This document shows, in pieces, positions 51,829-60,634 of a stretch of 64,000 bases of DNA. The stretch lies in contig JADGNZ010000023.1 in assembly GCA_017883205.1 (NCBI GenBank), positions 1 to 64,000 of the forward strand, read 5' to 3'. This DNA is from Thermoanaerobaculia bacterium (GTDB taxonomy: Bacteria > Acidobacteriota > Thermoanaerobaculia > Gp7-AA8). The notes under the pieces are model-generated. The model saw nothing but the letters and a program-made list of their open reading frames with translations. It ran no database searches and was not told the DNA's origin. Every line of letters begins with the position of its first letter. Within the stretch, counting starts at the first letter, position 1. The translations under genes and the position numbers were made by a program.

Positions 51829-52149
51829 TTAGTGCTTGGCCAGGCCGCGGATGAACGCGACCAGCGAGCTGACGTCGGCGACGCTCAGCTTGGTTTTGTA
51901 CGCGGGCATTTTGCCCTTGCCGTCCGAGATGATCTTCTCCAGGTCGGCGTCGGACTGTTTCTGCACTTCGGCCGAACTCAGATCGCGGATTTTCATCGAC
52001 TTGCCGATCGCGGTCGCGCCTTTGCCGTCGGGGCCGTGGCACGTTGCGCACTTTGATTTGTACGTGTCCGCGGCGCCGGGCGCGGCAGCGAACGACACCG
52101 AGGCGACGAGGAGGGCGAGGGTCATGATGGACAGTAGTTTTCGATTCAT
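51829..52149 (-). CDS. Monoheme cytochrome c
   Basis: A 106-aa periplasmic cytochrome (signal peptide 1-22). Heme attaches at CATCH near residue 35 and the axial Met is probably in GKMPAYKT. Carries electrons between periplasmic partners. AAGGAG lies 8 nt before the ATG. It sits 115 bp after the nine-heme gene on the same strand, separated by a strong terminator, so the two are probably transcribed apart. Confidence 0.92.
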   Translation of the reverse strand: MNRKLLSIMTLALLVASVSFAAAPGAADTYKSKCATCHGPDGKGATAIGKSMKIRDLSSAEVQKQSDADLEKIISDGKGKMPAYKTKLSVADVSSLVAFIRGLAKH

Positions 52150-52210
52150 ATGTTTCTCCTTCAGTTCAGGTGACTATATGCCGCCTGAGTGCCAGGCAGC
52201 GCAAAGCAAC

Positions 52211-52245
52211 AAAAAAAAGGGTGGCAGCCGAAGCCGCCACCCTTT
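52211..52245 (-). terminator. Rho-independent terminator of the multiheme gene
   Basis: A perfect 10-bp stem AAAGGGTGGC/GCCACCCTTT with inner GGCTTCGGCT, followed on the minus strand by eight T. Lies 19 bp after the stop of the gene at 52264. Confidence 0.92.
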
Positions 52246-52263
52246 GCGGATGATGCGTTATGT

Positions 52264-55200
52264 CTACTGCTTGGACGGGATCGTGGTCGGATCGTTGGTC
52301 TTCATGTCGATCAGCGATGCCGAGGAGAGAACGTTCGTCCCCTTCAGCACGGTAACCGTCGCAAAGCCCCAATCGAGGTCCGGCGCGTTCGCCCGGTTCT
52401 TGAACGGCTCGAGATCCTGCAAGCCTTTGCCCGCTGGGACGGTCAGGGTGTAGCTCGTCAAGGACTTGCCATTCGCATCGAACAGATTGATCGAGACCTG
52501 CGCCTCGGTCGTCCCGCCGTTGGTCACGACGAGATTCGAGCGCCAGGCGTCCGTTTTCTGGCGGAGTCCAATCAGGCTGATGGTCTGGCCGACGGTGTAG
52601 CCGAGGTCGGCAACGCGGCCGTCGTAGCTCTGGCCGTAGGTGCCGTTGTCAGCCTGGTTGAAGATGCGCGTGGTCACGAGCAGCGGACGGTCGGAGCAGA
52701 CTTCCAGCGCGCCGATGTTGCTCGGTCCCATGATCGCAGTCAGGTCTTCAAAGGCCTTCTGCGAATTGCCGATGACCGTGCCGGTAGCTTCGAGATCGCC
52801 GCTGGCCTGGTGAAGGATGAAACGAAGCGACGCGGTGGACGAATCGAGATTACGCGCCACGAGATCGGTGCGCCACTGGCTGTTGGCCTGGCCTGCCGTG
52901 TGGCCGACCATCTCGCTCCAGTAGACGTACTTGCTGGTGCAGGAGACGGCCCCGGCACCGTTGCCGAGTCCGCCGCCGATTGCGTTGTTGGTCACACTGC
53001 CGGCACCTGGAGTTACCGTTGCAGCGGCGTTGATCGAGCTCACCGCGAAGGTCGAGACGTCGAGCGCGGAATTGACGAAAGCCGGGTTGTGGACGCCCTT
53101 GCTCCTGTCGTTGATCACCATGAAGTAGTTCCAGCCGGCCTTCGCGATCGCGGGATCGGCGGCGGCATAGAGCTCGACGGCCGTGCCGGCGGGCGGGGTG
53201 ACCTTCACTGTGTTGAGGGCGAGATTGTTGACCTTGGAGCCGTCTGCAAGCGTGACATTGATGCCCTGGCGACCCGAGGCGGAGATGAATTCGATCGCCG
53301 AGATGTCGGAGGCGTTCTTGACGGTCTTGAGGCCATTGAGGTCGATCGATTTGCCGGCCCGAAGCTGCGCCTGCATCACGTTCTTGATGGCGGTCTCCAT
53401 CTGCGCCTTGAGCGCGTCCAGTTTCGCCTGTACCGGCGTCTGAACGGTCTCTTTGGTGATGTTGGTGTGACACTTGTTGCAGATGGTGTTGCTGGCGTAG
53501 AACGTGTGGTTCGTGCCGACCCAACTGCCGTCGGCATTCTGGAGCGCAACCGCGGCCGGAGGATTGGTCGATTCCATGTGGCAGGCAACGCAGGAGTCCT
53601 GAATCATGGAGTGCAGGCCGCGCGTGCCGACGTTCGTGAAGAACAGGTTCTGGCCCATGATGATGTCGGCCTGCGTTCCCTCGTGTGGTGCGCGTGAGGC
53701 GTCCGAGGCGAGGTAATTCGCGTCGTTCTTGAGTCCGCGCCGGCCGTTGTGGCAGGTCATGCAGGTCGCGCCTTTGCCGACGTTGGTTGCCGTGAAGCCG
53801 GCCATCAGCAGCGGAGTCGTGTTCATCACCCGGACCGTGGCGTTCGTGTTGTTGTCGCTGGACGTCGTGCCTGGGTTGTGCGGGTCATGGCAGGCTACGC
53901 ACGTCTGTGGGTCGACCTGATCGGCTGTCCAGGTGACGTTGAGATTGTTCGTGCTGAATGCGCTGTCCTGCCAGGCGATGAATCCCTGCGCGCTGTGACA
54001 CTTGGCGCAGGTGGGGTCAGTCCCCTCGGAAATGGCGGTGGTGTAGTTCGCATGCGCCGACATCTGCCACTGCTGGTAGCGTCCGTGGCGGGTGGGCTCG
54101 CCATGGCAGCTTCCGCAGACGTCGGACGAGAGCGACATGCGCGAGCCGTCCTTCGCCATGTGGGCCGCGCTGTCCTGCGGACCGTGGCAGTTCTCGCATT
54201 GGATATTCGCCATCCGTGCGGTAGCTGGGAATTGCGCGAGGATGTTGGTCCAGTTCGAGGCATCGCCGTGCGTGAGCAGAGTAGTGCTCAGGAATGCAGT
54301 CCAGTCGATCTGGTCGTCGATGCCGTTGTTCTTCACCGCTTTGGCGTTGAAGCCGACGGTATGACAGGAGAGACACGCAGAGGAGTAGTGGCCTGCCGGC
54401 GTGGTGACGTTCTGCGTGAAGATCTCGGCGTGGCCTGACTGGGCCCAAGGCGTGAAGAGATCGAAGTGCGGCGTGTTCTTGACGTGGCATCCCATGCACG
54501 TGGCATCGGCCACGGGACGGCCTGTCGCATCCTGTCCGGTGATGATGCCCTTCCAAGTGCCGGCGTGAACGGTGAGCGTGACCGGCTTGGCGGTGGCCAG
54601 GTCGAGCACGGTGAGCTGATAGGTGCCGGCGACGTCAGGTGTGAACTCAGGGTTCTGCGACGTCGGATCGAGCAGTGTTGCGGTCGATCCCGTCGGACCG
54701 GAGAGCGACCAGTTGTACTGCGCCTGCGTCTTGCCGTGCACGAGCACCGGCAGAAGCGTCGGAACGTTGCGAACGCCCGTCGAGGTCTCCCACGGCAGAT
54801 TGCCGGTGACCGTGGCGGCGGTGTGGTACGTGCCGGAAGAGGTGGTCACGGCGATGTCGAACTTGATCCCGATCGCTTCGGCGAGTGCTTCATTGGAGAC
54901 GCCGGCGACCATGTAGCGATTCTGCAAACCGCCTGTGTAGTCGGTGCTCGGCGGTATGTAGGCGGGCAGCAGCGAATTGGCGACCGGCTGCTCCTCGAGC
55001 ACCGTCATCAATTGTTCGCGAAACACATTTCGGGCCGGAAGCGCGATGGTGACCGTGTCGGTGCCGGTGTTGCTGAGCGTCGCCGCCGGACCGCCGTTCT
55101 GTGTCCATTTGATGCTGATGAGCGATGATCCGTCGGTGATAGCGACGGTGGCCTTGGCCGTAACCGTCGCTCCAGGCACCGGATCGCCGGTGACCGCAGT

Positions 55201-55311
55201 CGTGACGGTAACGGGTGCGGCGGCCCAGGCGGCGCCTGCGACACCCAGAATCAGAATCCCCGCCAGCAATACGAGCAAAATCCGCTGATGACGATGTTTC
55301 CCTGTCTCCAT
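52264..55311 (-). CDS. Nine-heme c-type cytochrome
   Basis: A 1015-aa exported protein. Signal peptide (about 1-30), then Ig-like beta domains (30-260) with SLISIKWTQNGG. Nine CxxCH heme sites lie between residues 272 and 615: CMGCH, CLSCH, CENCH, CGSCH, CAKCH, CVACH, CMTCH, CVACH and CNKCH. The last 400 residues are beta-rich and Cys-poor. This fits extracellular or periplasmic multiheme cytochromes used in respiration or electron export; the electron partner is not known. AAGGAG is 7 nt before the ATG, and a T-tailed hairpin ends the gene. Confidence 0.92.
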   Translation of the reverse strand: METGKHRHQRILLVLLAGILILGVAGAAWAAAPVTVTTAVTGDPVPGATVTAKATVAITDGSSLISIKWTQNGGPAATLSNTGTDTVTIALPARNVFREQLMTVLEEQPVANSLLPAYIPPSTDYTGGLQNRYMVAGVSNEALAEAIGIKFDIAVTTSSGTYHTAATVTGNLPWETSTGVRNVPTLLPVLVHGKTQAQYNWSLSGPTGSTATLLDPTSQNPEFTPDVAGTYQLTVLDLATAKPVTLTVHAGTWKGIITGQDATGRPVADATCMGCHVKNTPHFDLFTPWAQSGHAEIFTQNVTTPAGHYSSACLSCHTVGFNAKAVKNNGIDDQIDWTAFLSTTLLTHGDASNWTNILAQFPATARMANIQCENCHGPQDSAAHMAKDGSRMSLSSDVCGSCHGEPTRHGRYQQWQMSAHANYTTAISEGTDPTCAKCHSAQGFIAWQDSAFSTNNLNVTWTADQVDPQTCVACHDPHNPGTTSSDNNTNATVRVMNTTPLLMAGFTATNVGKGATCMTCHNGRRGLKNDANYLASDASRAPHEGTQADIIMGQNLFFTNVGTRGLHSMIQDSCVACHMESTNPPAAVALQNADGSWVGTNHTFYASNTICNKCHTNITKETVQTPVQAKLDALKAQMETAIKNVMQAQLRAGKSIDLNGLKTVKNASDISAIEFISASGRQGINVTLADGSKVNNLALNTVKVTPPAGTAVELYAAADPAIAKAGWNYFMVINDRSKGVHNPAFVNSALDVSTFAVSSINAAATVTPGAGSVTNNAIGGGLGNGAGAVSCTSKYVYWSEMVGHTAGQANSQWRTDLVARNLDSSTASLRFILHQASGDLEATGTVIGNSQKAFEDLTAIMGPSNIGALEVCSDRPLLVTTRIFNQADNGTYGQSYDGRVADLGYTVGQTISLIGLRQKTDAWRSNLVVTNGGTTEAQVSINLFDANGKSLTSYTLTVPAGKGLQDLEPFKNRANAPDLDWGFATVTVLKGTNVLSSASLIDMKTNDPTTIPSKQ

Positions 55312-55522
55312 GACCTTCTCCTTTTGTTCAGTTCCGGAGGATGGCGATCACAGCGGGCCATGAGGGCATACGCCGTCGCGCATCGATGGAGACACTCTCG
55401 GCTCTGAGCGTCCGAAAAGCAGTCGAGACGGTCACGGTACCCACGTACGGAAAATCACGGGTGTTGGTGTCGGGGGAACGTCACCGATAGGGGTGATCGA
55501 CGTGTCTGCGTGTGAGAGACGG

Positions 55523-55542
55523 GTTCACGCGGAGACGCGGAG
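55523..55542. repeat. Half copy of palindromic repeat family B
   Basis: gttcacgcggagacgcggag, just beyond the stop of the DUF4041 gene; the right arm is missing. Confidence 0.75.
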
Positions 55543-55563
55543 TGATATGTCCGGCCTGGACGC

Positions 55564-57108
55564 TCACGTTAGCGGCCGGACCGGCTCCGCTACGAAAGCC
55601 GGAAGCGGGGGCGGTACGTCCTCCGTCACGGCGTCACTGAGGGGCAGCCGCGCCGGGAAGGCAATTGCAAGTTTTGCCGCTTCCGGTGCCGCTTTTGAAG
55701 CGCGCATCGTCACCGTTTCTCGGTACTCGCGAGCTTCTGCCAAACGCGTGAAGTAGATCTTTAGTCCTTTCTCTTTGGCCAGGGTCTCAAGTTCTTCTAT
55801 GGAAACGCGAAAGAATTCTTTCCGCATGTTGACGAGGTTTACGCTTCGGTCGGCGAAGTAATGCTGAATCTCCCATTCCAAAGCGGGCGCGTCTTCCGAG
55901 TAGGCCATTGCGTGCACATCGAACGGGAAAGGCACCGAGGCGTCGCTAAGGTCCTTCACGCGGTCCATTGGATCTAAACGCCTCGTCATTCCGATCTTGA
56001 AGACGCCTTCGCCGAACGAACCCACGTTCGAAATTACATAGACGTAACCGGCCTTTGTAAGTTCAGCGAGAGCCTTGGCCCGTCGGCCTTTGGTGCGCGC
56101 TTGCTCAAGCTGCTGTTGCAACTCGAGAATTCGAACATTCAGGCGGTTGTGTTCTTCCCCTTGTGACTTCGCAAGCTCGACTCGCGCTTTCTCCAGTGCG
56201 CGTTCGTAACGAGTCTCCTCGGCCTGTGTCTCCGCGTGCACCTGCTCTGCCTCCCGGCGCGCCTTCTCCTCGTCGCGCATCTGCTCTCGGATCCTGCGCT
56301 GCTCTTCGGCGATCTGATGCTTCTTCTCCTCCAACTCGTATTCGAGTCGCAGTTCCTCGATCTTCAGCTCCAGATAAAGCCGGGTAATCGAGACCTGCAT
56401 GACGCCGCCGAGATCGTTGACGACTTCGAAAGATTTCTGTATCCGTTCCTCCATCTTGGTAACGTTGTTCCACGAGACCCGCGCGACCGCAGCATCACAC
56501 TCTCCGTTGAAGGCGCGCAGTAGGAGTTTCATGTACTGCTTCTGCATCCGTTCGCCGTCTCGGCGGCTTCCTCCGACGGACCATGCGATCGCGAATTTCG
56601 CGGCCTCGCCATTCTTCAGCAGAGCTTTCTGCTTCTCGCGTACGGTCTCCACTCGCGCTTTATATTCATCCGGCGTGTCGAAGTTGAAGTGCGGTTTGTA
56701 GAGGCCGAAGGAGATGTCTTCCAAGTTTTCTTCAAGCAAAGTCACCTGCGCATACAGGCGGTCGTAGGTACTCTTGGCGTTTGTGTAGTCAACGTCAAGA
56801 GCATCCCGCCGGCTCTTGGTAGTAGTGGCCAGGTCCACTCCTTCCTGGCGAAGGTTCGCGGCCTCTTTTTCGAGCTGCTCAACCTCACTTGCCGTCTCGC
56901 TCTTCTGGCGCTCGATTGCCGTCATGGCATCGCTCCTCTCGCGAGCAAGCGATGTCTCAGCTTCGGCCTTCAAACGCTTGATCTCTACTTCGACGCTGGC
57001 AATTCCGGCGTACTCTGCTTGTACGCGCCGGAGCTTCCGAACTAGAACAGCTAAGCCGACAGCGAGTCCGGCGGCGATGATCCCCAGAGCTGCGAGTACG
57101 ATGGACAT
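55564..57108 (-). CDS. Membrane-anchored DUF4041 / GIY-YIG nuclease (SNIPE-like)
   Basis: A 514-aa protein. Residues 3-22 form one membrane helix, 27-100 a coiled coil, about 125-250 the DUF4041 domain (GLYKPHFNFDTPDEYK to QVSITRLYLELK), 245-350 another long coiled coil, and 354-435 a GIY-YIG nuclease of the T5orf172/MUG113 type. The nuclease core is intact: Y355-V-Y357 in place of GIY, K371-I-G373, R383 in MDRVKDL and E411/E413 in EWEIQHYF. This architecture (TM, coiled coil, DUF4041, GIY-YIG) is that of SNIPE, a membrane nuclease known to cut incoming phage DNA. It starts 36 bp after its partner gene. AAGGA before the ATG. Anti-phage role is inferred from architecture. Confidence 0.85.
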   Translation of the reverse strand: MSIVLAALGIIAAGLAVGLAVLVRKLRRVQAEYAGIASVEVEIKRLKAEAETSLARERSDAMTAIERQKSETASEVEQLEKEAANLRQEGVDLATTTKSRRDALDVDYTNAKSTYDRLYAQVTLLEENLEDISFGLYKPHFNFDTPDEYKARVETVREKQKALLKNGEAAKFAIAWSVGGSRRDGERMQKQYMKLLLRAFNGECDAAVARVSWNNVTKMEERIQKSFEVVNDLGGVMQVSITRLYLELKIEELRLEYELEEKKHQIAEEQRRIREQMRDEEKARREAEQVHAETQAEETRYERALEKARVELAKSQGEEHNRLNVRILELQQQLEQARTKGRRAKALAELTKAGYVYVISNVGSFGEGVFKIGMTRRLDPMDRVKDLSDASVPFPFDVHAMAYSEDAPALEWEIQHYFADRSVNLVNMRKEFFRVSIEELETLAKEKGLKIYFTRLAEAREYRETVTMRASKAAPEAAKLAIAFPARLPLSDAVTEDVPPPLPAFVAEPVRPLT

Positions 57109-57144
57109 GCAATGTTCCTTTGTGGCCTGTGCGTTGTTGCGTTC

Positions 57145-58305
57145 CTACGCTTTCCTCTTATTGCTTGGATTCGCGACGTTGAATTCGAAGATTGGTTCCA
57201 CTGGCGCTAGTTCCTCTGGTTTTTTCGACAGAGCGGCGTGAAGCGTCCGAAGGCAGGCGGCCGGATCGACGCGTCGCAAGTCAAAGTCGGTGAGAATGTC
57301 CGGGGACGCTCTAACGCTAACAAGGCAGGGCTTGGCGGGTTGGCCTGTCCCGCGATCAATGCCGCTCACGTAGCCAGTAAAGGCCACCGTGTCGACCGCG
57401 TGAGACTCTTTATCGGCCGAGAAGATTTCGCATAGGGTCCGGAGAGCCGTCTGTGCAATCACAGAGGCGTAGAGGGTTCGCCGCTCTTTGGCCGACCGGG
57501 GAGTCTCAATGATCTCGTCCTTGCTCTTGACGTACTTGAAACTTCCCACCCCCGGCACGATGTCAAAGGATGGAAGCTCCATGTCTACGGCGAGCACCTT
57601 GGACCGAGGCTCGTATGCCACTTCTGACAAGCTCGGAAATCCTTCGGGGTACTCACTCCTGCTCAGGACGAGTGTAAAAAACGCCGCTACAGCTTCTTCG
57701 GTGCGAGCCTGAAAGCCACGCTTCAGTTCGTCCACTTCGGCGTGCTGCGCCTCGACTCGACGGCGGTTTTCGAGGGCCTTGCATTCGTGCGCGGCCCGCG
57801 CCTCTTCGAGCTTTTGTTGTCGCTGTCTCTCGCCCTCGGTGTGCTCCGCCACATCAGACTCGAAGCGCTGCAACGCCTCCGCACTTCGCCGTTCGTGCCT
57901 CGCTTTGGTTCCAGGTATTAGCTGCAAGAACCAACCCGGAGGAGGAGGCAGATAGTCGCCGATCTCCGGCAAAGGTATCGGGTACGCGAGGTGGCCCGGT
58001 TTGAAGGGATCGTCTACTTGTGGCTCTTTGAGGAACTCCAAGTCGAGGTGGGAGTCGGCCGCTAAGCCATGAGAAAGAACCGATTCGAGACTCTCGACCG
58101 TGTGGAGGAGCTCGGCGTTTTGATCCTCAACTTCAGTCAACTGCGACTCAATGTAGTGACGTTTTTGTTCTTTTGCCTCAGCTAAGCGAAAACGTGCCTC
58201 CGCGCGCTGCGCACGCACCAAGGCACGGGCATGAGCGGCCTGCGCCCGTCGTGCTGCGCGCTCCATTTGGATCATCGTTGATACGAATCCGCGGCTTCGG
58301 CTCAT
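57145..58305 (-). CDS. Coiled-coil partner of the SNIPE-like nuclease
   Basis: A 386-aa protein. Coiled coils at about 12-80 and 155-205 flank a Pro-rich DYLPPPPGWF segment. The C-terminal 180 residues (RSEYPEGFPSLSEVAYEP, KYVKSKDEI, LYASVIAQTALRTL, RVDPAACLRTL) resemble the N-terminal half of a group of longer proteins that end in an Mrr-type restriction nuclease; that nuclease is absent here. So the nuclease may be supplied by the second gene instead. The ATG at 58305 is used; a GTG is two codons earlier. Function inferred; the resemblance is from memory of the family, not a search. Confidence 0.65.
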   Translation of the reverse strand: MSRSRGFVSTMIQMERAARRAQAAHARALVRAQRAEARFRLAEAKEQKRHYIESQLTEVEDQNAELLHTVESLESVLSHGLAADSHLDLEFLKEPQVDDPFKPGHLAYPIPLPEIGDYLPPPPGWFLQLIPGTKARHERRSAEALQRFESDVAEHTEGERQRQQKLEEARAAHECKALENRRRVEAQHAEVDELKRGFQARTEEAVAAFFTLVLSRSEYPEGFPSLSEVAYEPRSKVLAVDMELPSFDIVPGVGSFKYVKSKDEIIETPRSAKERRTLYASVIAQTALRTLCEIFSADKESHAVDTVAFTGYVSGIDRGTGQPAKPCLVSVRASPDILTDFDLRRVDPAACLRTLHAALSKKPEELAPVEPIFEFNVANPSNKRKA

Positions 58306-58660
58306 CTCCACGCTCTCTCGCCACCACGCAACGCTTCATCACAGGCCCATGCTTGGAACCCGCTCGAAAACTCAGGAGTCCTTGGATCGGCCGATTTTAA
58401 CCCGCGATGCCTAATTCGGCACCAATGATTAATTAAACTATTTGGCTGAGCCGTTGGTGTCGCTGTACCGGGGTCCAACCATCGATCGGTGATCTGGAAC
58501 GTTGCCTCACACGGCGAGAGCGACGCCGCGGTCTGGACGGCGCTCCGTCCGCTGGCATCGCAAACGCGCATCACGCCGATTTCCGCGTGACCTCGAATCG
58601 CCACGAATCGTGGGGGCACGCTTTCTGGCGATCCACACAACGTCGGGGAGCGGAAGAGCA

Positions 58661-59395
58661 GCGAAACGATGCCCACGAGTAACGAAACGAAGCTCGCGAC
58701 CAACCAAACGCTGCTCGGGGGCAACGAAGCGATGCTCGTGAGTTCCGAAACGGTTCTCGCGAGCAACCAAACGCTGCTCGCGAGCTTCGAAACGTTGCTC
58801 ACGTTCTTCCACGGTAAGAGCGTGCGCTTCAAAACGATGCTCGCGACGTTCGAAACGATGCTCGCACTATTTCCAGGGTAAGAACTGGAGCATCAAAACG
58901 ATGCTCGCGAGGTTCGCAACGATTCTCGCGAGGAACCAAACGCTGCGTGCGAGCTTCGAAGCGTTGCTCACGTTCTTCCATGGTAAGAGCGTGCACTTCA
59001 AGACGCTGCTGGCGAGATTCGAAACGATGCTCGCACTCTTTCCAAGATAAGAACTGAAGCATCAAAACGACGCTCGCGAGGTTCGAAACGATTCTCGCGA
59101 GCAACCAAACGCAGCTCGCGGGCATCGAAACGTAGCCCGCACTCTTTCCACGGTAAGAGCGTGCGCTTCAAAACGATGCTCGCGAGGTTCGAAACGTTGC
59201 TCACGTTCTTCCATGGTAAGAGCGCGCGCTTCAAAACGATGCTCGCGAGGTTCGAAACGATCCTCGCGAGCAACCAAACGCAGATCGCAAGCATCGAAAC
59301 GTTGCCCGCACTCTTTCCACGGTAAGAGTGTGCGCTGCAAAACGATGCTCACGAGGTTCGAAACGAAGCTCGCGCTCTTTCCATGGTGAGAGCGG
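58661..59395. repeat. 21-bp heptad minisatellite, about 35 units
   Basis: Tandem units like ctcgcgaggttcgaaacgatg (21 bp), each with CTCGCGAG at the joint and TTCGAA in the middle. Every fifth or sixth unit ends in ccacggtaag and several of these are 22 bp. All six frames can read heptads: LLASNQT/LLASFET forward, EHRFEAR/EQRLVAR reverse. The 22-bp units break any long frame, and I find no ribosome site, so it is probably non-coding, although the reverse heptads look like a coiled coil. Confidence 0.93.
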
Positions 59396-59449
59396 GCCTC
59401 AAGAACAGCGTCGAGAACTCTCCGGTTCGCAACATGCCGCGAGAGGAAA

Positions 59450-59514
59450 CCCCCTCATCCGGCCTTCGGCCACCTTCTCCCCCACAAAAAAGACGTGGGG
59501 GAGAAGGCGCTCGA
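59450..59514. repeat. Palindromic repeat family E, copy 3
   Basis: ccccctcatccggccttcgg, accttctcccccac, a short loop with acgt, then gtgggggagaaggcgctcg. Directly after the minisatellite. Confidence 0.9.
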
Positions 59515-59640
59515 ATGAGAGGCACCCGCGTCAACAACCCTCACTGCAAAAAGAGAGGCCCGGCGCTCACGACTCTCATCGGATCGCCGAGGACTTTGCC
59601 GCCGGCGTCGGAGACGGTCTTCATCGATTGGCGGAAATGG

Positions 59641-59668
59641 TTCACGCGGAGACGCGGAGGACGCGGAG
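59641..59668. repeat. Half copy of palindromic repeat family B
   Basis: ttcacgcggagacgcggagg followed by acgcggag, 23 bp upstream of the cupredoxin gene, so it may overlap its promoter. Confidence 0.75.
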
Positions 59669-59690
59669 TACCGGCGTTACCATGGCTGTG

Positions 59691-60137
59691 ATGAAACGAA
59701 TCGCGCTCTTCTCACTTCTTCTGTTCGCCTGTCGCGATACGCACCAGCACGGTGTGACGATCGCGCGGAGCGGGAAGGCCGCGGCGCGCGTGGTCGTGCT
59801 GACGATCGGCGTGGCCATCAAGGAGACGGGGCCGGCGGAGACGGTGAAGCAGTTCGGTGAGGTGTACGCCTTTTCGCCCGAGGTGTTTGCAGTGCGGCGC
59901 GATCAACCGACGGAGATCGTGTTCTGGAACCTGCAGCCGGACGACGAGCACGACTTCATGCTCACCGATCAGTCGAACAAGGTGCTGTTGCAGACGAAGT
60001 TTCCGCCGTTGTCGAAGACATCGTTCGTGATGACGTTTCACGACGATGGCGTTTTCCCGTTCTACTGCACGATGCATCAGCCGGCCATGTCGGGGCAGAT
60101 CATCGTGACCGAAAGCAATGAACCACAGAGACACTGA
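59691..60137 (+). CDS. Cupredoxin-domain lipoprotein
   Basis: A 148-aa lipoprotein with lipobox LLFAC. The C-terminal cupredoxin fold has a His in DDEHDFML and the copper-site loop YCTMHQPAMSG (Cys, His, Met), like COX2- or nitrosocyanin-type sites. It could carry electrons or copper in the periplasm. An ATG three codons upstream is possible. The last residues (NEPQRH) and stop come from a family A repeat at 60122. Partner unknown; cytochrome genes lie 4-8 kb away. Confidence 0.8.
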   Translation: MKRIALFSLLLFACRDTHQHGVTIARSGKAAARVVVLTIGVAIKETGPAETVKQFGEVYAFSPEVFAVRRDQPTEIVFWNLQPDDEHDFMLTDQSNKVLLQTKFPPLSKTSFVMTFHDDGVFPFYCTMHQPAMSGQIIVTESNEPQRH

Positions 60138-60177
60138 GATCGCAGAGTGATCTCCGTGACCTCTGCGTCTCTGTGGT
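60122..60177. repeat. Palindromic repeat family A, copy 6
   Basis: ACCACAGAGACACTGAGATC with complement ending CTCTGTGGT. Overlaps the last codons of the cupredoxin gene. Confidence 0.9.
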
Positions 60178-60187
60178 TCAACCGCTT

Positions 60188-60634
60188 CTACGACACCGCT
60201 GCCGCGGCCGCCGGCCTGCGGCTCCAGTACGACACCGCGAGGAGGAAATCGGCGACGTTGGTGGAGGCAAAGGTTGGGGCGAGGTCGGACGGGGCGACGA
60301 TTCCGACGACGTGGAAGGCGTCGTCGACGACGGGAAGGCGGCGGACCTGCTTCGCTTCCATCAACTGGATCGCTGCGTCGACTTCCTCATCCTGATGGAT
60401 CGTGTGGACGGTTTTCGTCATCACGTCGCGGACCGGAACGGCGGCGGGGTACATGCCTTTCGCCACGGCGCGGCAGGTGATGTCGCGGTCGGTGATCACA
60501 CCGACGAGCTTTGAGTCTTTGCAGACGGGGACGATGCCGCAGTCGTGGTCGAGCATCAGTGTGGCGACCTGATCGATCTTCGTATCGGGAGTGCAGCAGA
60601 CGGGAGCGGGTGTCATGACATCTTTGACCAACAT
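60188..60634 (-). CDS. Tandem CBS-domain protein
   Basis: A 148-aa protein of two CBS domains (about 1-60 and 70-130): VKDVMTPAPVCCTPD, GIVPVCKDSKLVGVITDRDI and RDVMTKTVHTIHQDEEV, RRLPVVDDAFHVVGIVAPSDL. CBS pairs bind adenosine nucleotides or SAM and sense energy state. GGAGG is 8 nt before the ATG at 60634, which I prefer over the long open frame upstream. Convergent with the cupredoxin gene. Confidence 0.9.
   Translation of the reverse strand: MLVKDVMTPAPVCCTPDTKIDQVATLMLDHDCGIVPVCKDSKLVGVITDRDITCRAVAKGMYPAAVPVRDVMTKTVHTIHQDEEVDAAIQLMEAKQVRRLPVVDDAFHVVGIVAPSDLAPTFASTNVADFLLAVSYWSRRPAAAAAVS

Follow-up and report, generated by a model that had tools for sequence, protein, structure and literature searches.

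Can a SNIPE nuclease work together with a second protein encoded by the gene in front of it? The question arises from two adjacent genes on the reverse strand of the window, that is, the whole 64,000-nucleotide stretch of DNA from a Thermoanaerobaculia bacterium (phylum Acidobacteriota) analyzed here. SNIPE, also known as PD-Lambda-1, blocks the entry of siphovirus DNA and binds the tape measure protein. It represents a newly described form of self/non-self discrimination, based on the position of DNA at injection, and, as published, consists of a single gene (Saxton et al. 2026, PMC13190303; Vassallo et al. 2022, PMC9519451). As shown in the former paper, the E. coli protein is placed at the inner membrane by a transmembrane (TM) helix, and its GIY-YIG domain cuts incoming phage DNA. 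The open-access passages on DUF4041 proteins that we drew on, PMC13190303 among them, name no partner gene for SNIPE. In contrast to the described single-gene system, the window adds a conserved upstream partner. Its sequence suggests that the pair is an undescribed two-protein form of SNIPE defense, which upholds, as a two-gene SNIPE variant, what an earlier note on this DNA had put forward as a candidate for an undescribed variant of a system.

A SNIPE gene and its upstream partner

The SNIPE homolog P0001 (514 aa; 55564..57108, reverse strand) has the order of parts that had been read from its letters, as PADLOC, Pfam, and hydropathy agree: from the N- to the C-terminus, a TM helix (residues ~3–25), a coiled coil, DUF4041 (194–249), a long helix, and GIY-YIG (354–446). 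The PADLOC profile of PD-Lambda-1 matches residues 23–475 (E = 2.7e-158), Pfam DUF4041 (PF13250) matches 194–249 (E = 3.8e-24), and the GIY-YIG families T5orf172 and MUG113 in Pfam match 354–444 and 370–446, respectively. The N-terminus, judged by simple hydropathy, contains a single strongly hydrophobic stretch, with a maximum 19-residue Kyte–Doolittle mean of 2.68 (3.37 in the E. coli SNIPE homolog), and is predicted to form the membrane anchor that characterizes SNIPE. The likeness to SNIPE/PD-Lambda-1 thus comprises the order of domains, the catalytic Glu, and ~42% identity to an E. coli homolog. Among the residues named earlier for mutation, E411 corresponds to the catalytic glutamate E414 in the E. 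coli protein and R383 to R386, both being identical in 49/49 SNIPEs aligned; E411 is thus a sound choice, whereas E413 is not conserved and is a poor target.

The partner, P0002 (386 aa; 57145..58305, reverse strand), was characterized by PADLOC, alignment, and AlphaFold2 as a nuclease-less protein corresponding to the N-terminal portion of the Mrr type (mREase_IV). Its sole PADLOC match is to mREase_IV (PDLC03663; E = 2.5e-57), the alignment of which covers profile positions 25–389 of 544, including the N-terminal coiled coil and the alpha/beta domain, and stops there. No significant Pfam or NCBIfam family was found in P0002, and Mrr_cat (PF04471) gave no match. Full-length relatives run on into Pfam Mrr_cat at the very point where P0002 ends, and the best of these Mrr-fused proteins are ~38% identical to it over the whole N-terminal part; residues R289, E293, G321, P245, and L343 are conserved and common to partners and Mrr-fused forms. 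Thus, P0002 resembles mREase_IV, whose cutting of modified DNA is known from profile annotation only, across the entire N-terminal part but lacks Mrr_cat, and the nearest nuclease is the GIY-YIG domain of the SNIPE encoded by the next gene. The profile search accordingly returned the N-terminal part of an Mrr-type family without its nuclease, as the earlier note had it, and not an unrelated family.

The AlphaFold2 model of P0002 (pLDDT 91.6) predicts a helical hairpin (residues 5–74 and 133–199) and an alpha/beta domain (about 200–360), which reaches a pLDDT of 90.9 when modeled alone. Sequence searches for solved relatives of the partner yielded none that was convincing, and fold searches gave nothing above background, either for the whole protein (best Foldseek E = 3.5e-3; best Z = 7.4) or for the alpha/beta domain (best Foldseek E = 2.2e-3; best Z = 7.6). 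The sex pheromone precursor domain, MamM CTD, and Era KH were dismissed as fold kin on these scores, and homology of P0002 to DUF4041 was dismissed as well (hhalign probability 1.3%).

Both genes are present in one copy each per genome. They are separated by 36 nt (57109..57144, reverse strand) with an AAAGGA Shine–Dalgarno-like site before the ATG of SNIPE and, because of the shared strand, the short gap, and this site, likely form one transcription unit. In G401, a genome of the same genus, the flanks of the pair are only about 200 nt apart, representing an empty site, and the pair therefore lies in a variable block of roughly 4.9 kb (55325..60207), which was delimited by blastn of the window against L166 (window 51836–55324 maps to L166 4115–7575, and 60208–63529 maps from L166 7779 onward). 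The block is flanked by multiheme cytochrome and CBS/citrate synthase regions, and no defense genes were recognized beside the pair among the neighbors sampled within the window. Just upstream of P0002, positions 58656–59391 hold degenerate tandem repeats with periods of 21, 63, and 169 bp and a unit near GAGCAACGAAACGATGCTCGC, which yield repetitive ORFs. In genome G392, an ORF of DTKTACM repeats (L165, 3596–4528) replaces the pair upstream of the same cytochrome.

Recurrence and evolution of the pair

By hand count, the pair is found in 20 genomes, plasmids, or contigs, 19 of them besides the window, and a deduplicated script count gave 18 nuclease-less partner entries with an adjacent SNIPE. 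The corresponding number for Mrr-fused homologs is 0/42 within the extracted span of each locus, mostly at least 1.5 kb per side. In every pair, SNIPE immediately follows the partner in the same orientation, and most other pairs have frames that share 1 or 4 nt, compared with the 36-nt gap in the window. In Micrococcaceae (345 genomes), where the search was made for the partner and not for SNIPE, all 12 partner genes have SNIPE directly downstream, including those of a Pseudarthrobacter (L065) and an Arthrobacter (L066). Co-occurrence of the two genes in other genomes, on which the earlier proposal hinged, also holds in an Acidobacteria MAG (L062), another member of the window's class (L072 in G440), Actinomycetota (L122), Planctomycetota (L141 and L151), the Kocuria rosea plasmid NZ_CP126484, and a viral contig (L169). 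Among 396 genomes of the phylum Acidobacteriota, SNIPE is present in 6, and the unfused partner was seen in just two, the window's genome and G310, where it is the orphan L012; since both are this rare in the sample, their adjacency by chance is very unlikely.

Most SNIPEs have no partner. Plasmid records matching SNIPE number 185 and those matching the partner family 18, with the pair in one of those inspected, and the window-type pair, in which a lambda-like SNIPE with a TM helix is accompanied by the partner, was found once only. The remaining nuclease-less matches consist of frameshifted Mrr fragments, TerB fusions, contig-end pieces, weak matches, the truncated gene L126, and the orphan L012. 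Partner relatives were absent from phage records; against viral contigs, P0002 as the query gave no match, and the actinobacterial partner alignment gave one pair. L147/L152 was not counted, as its N-domain ORF lies downstream of SNIPE and is cut short close to the end of a contig. An additional, unpaired SNIPE occurs in both Pseudarthrobacter G498 and Arthrobacter G499 (L082 and L083), and the paired SNIPEs devoid of a TM helix (L062, L065, L066, L072, L141, and others) begin with repeats of the motif PPPGWPxPPxGW.

In the SNIPE tree, the actinobacterial and acidobacterial paired SNIPEs form a clade of their own, the window SNIPE groups with lambda-type single-gene SNIPEs (support 98/86 and 96/88), and that of L151 belongs to a third lineage; paired SNIPEs hence occupy at least three separate lineages. 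A single clade for the first 15 paired SNIPEs was rejected (p-AU 4e-40), as was the grouping of the window and L151 SNIPEs (p = 1.4e-4). Given that well-supported branches of this tree force three changes, SNIPEs appear to have gained the partner about three times, if losses are taken to be less likely than gains. In the partner tree, the window partner sits among Mrr-fused proteins, and a single origin of the partner lineage was not rejected (p = 0.075 without L151 and 0.29 with it), so the repeated association is claimed for the SNIPE side only. The partner in L151 is a remote homolog (hhalign 97.7%, E = 2e-12). In the Micrococcaceae pairs, both genes are under purifying selection, with dN/dS of about 0.08–0.18 for the partner and similar values for SNIPE.

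Possible roles of the partner

On balance, the pair is probably a two-protein SNIPE variant in which the partner most likely acts as a recognition or licensing subunit. Judging from its conserved anatomy and catalytic residues, the window SNIPE would be anchored in the inner membrane through its TM helix and use the GIY-YIG domain to cut phage DNA on entry. The product of the upstream gene would be a dedicated accessory subunit with a predicted long helical hairpin and alpha/beta domain, a module found ahead of the nuclease in the single chain of Mrr-type restriction enzymes. It would most likely bind SNIPE through the coiled coil of the latter and sense either the incoming DNA or the injection apparatus, so that SNIPE would take over the cutting from the absent Mrr domain. 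The word recognition follows from domain logic. The earlier note's reading of recognition and cutting as tasks of two proteins is likewise a hypothesis, one that agrees with the fusions described below.

The main rival, to which we give a smaller but real chance, holds that the partner restrains SNIPE as an inhibitor or tether against self-cleavage instead of recognizing phage. Many antitoxin genes come first in their operons, and the partner gene likewise precedes SNIPE. Moreover, SNIPEs of the largest paired clade have a proline/tryptophan-rich N-terminus without a predicted TM helix, and the partner accompanies every member found; E. coli SNIPE deprived of its TM helix is described as cutting host DNA and being toxic (PMC13190303). 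However, the window and L151 SNIPEs keep the helix and yet have the partner, and TM-less SNIPEs without a partner exist (L105–L109 except L107, L112–L114, L075, and L083). In three natural pairs (L087, L094, and L169), the partner is frameshifted or interrupted by a stop beside an intact nuclease gene, which also speaks against restraint, although these breaks may be either sequencing errors or signs of a dispensable partner.

That two independent defense genes share an operon by chance, with the partner working independently or together with a different nuclease, is improbable. Defense genes do tend to cluster, and an AbiEii gene lies near the L156 pair, but an intact, confidently nuclease-less partner away from SNIPE was not found, save for the odd case of L012, the order is fixed, most pairs have overlapping frames, and three SNIPE lineages carry the partner. 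We consider it very improbable that the partner is a functionless relic left by the decay of an Mrr restriction enzyme, as its missing nuclease and the resemblance of L012 and L126 to eroded orphans could suggest: the end point is identical in many genomes, the low dN/dS of paired partners and the residues held in common with Mrr-fused forms argue for constraint, and the fold is predicted with confidence. A recurrent second subunit derived from restriction enzymes would show how SNIPE specificity diversifies and could account for the safety of SNIPEs that have no membrane helix. The partner is also the missing component for profile searches to target.

The partner-type domain beyond SNIPE

Elsewhere, the partner-type N-domain is fused to an Mrr nuclease or to TerB domains (L063, L145, and L146; Planctomycetota). 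In the Phycisphaerae locus L063, the fusion is to a TerB_N/TerB region matching SngA of Shango; the N-domain is common to this protein and the partner, but TerB is absent from the window pair, making Shango a third context of the domain only. Because the N-domain is fused to effectors in these proteins, it would be a sensor or adaptor of effectors and, beside SNIPE, would act in trans. As its architectures indicate, the N-domain is a modular defense domain, and the pair offers a first handle on this widespread, uncharacterized module found with Mrr and TerB effectors. More tentatively, one may picture a heteromeric SNIPE in which a recognition module of restriction enzymes acts in trans on a membrane GIY-YIG nuclease, joining injection-site sensing by DUF4041 with a second check on DNA or phage, the module being a general plug-in for Mrr and TerB/Shango effectors as well.

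The TerB fusions in L063, L145, and L146 may constitute a further defense architecture. A Kitasatospora plasmid protein (L035, 5731–8016) combines the N-domain and Mrr_cat with a C-terminal TerD. Prophage-borne defense genes often sit between repressor-like and integrase-like genes, and in three viral contigs (L173, L174, and L175), proteins with the N-domain and Mrr are encoded between genes that appear, from their ORF starts only, to be of these two kinds.
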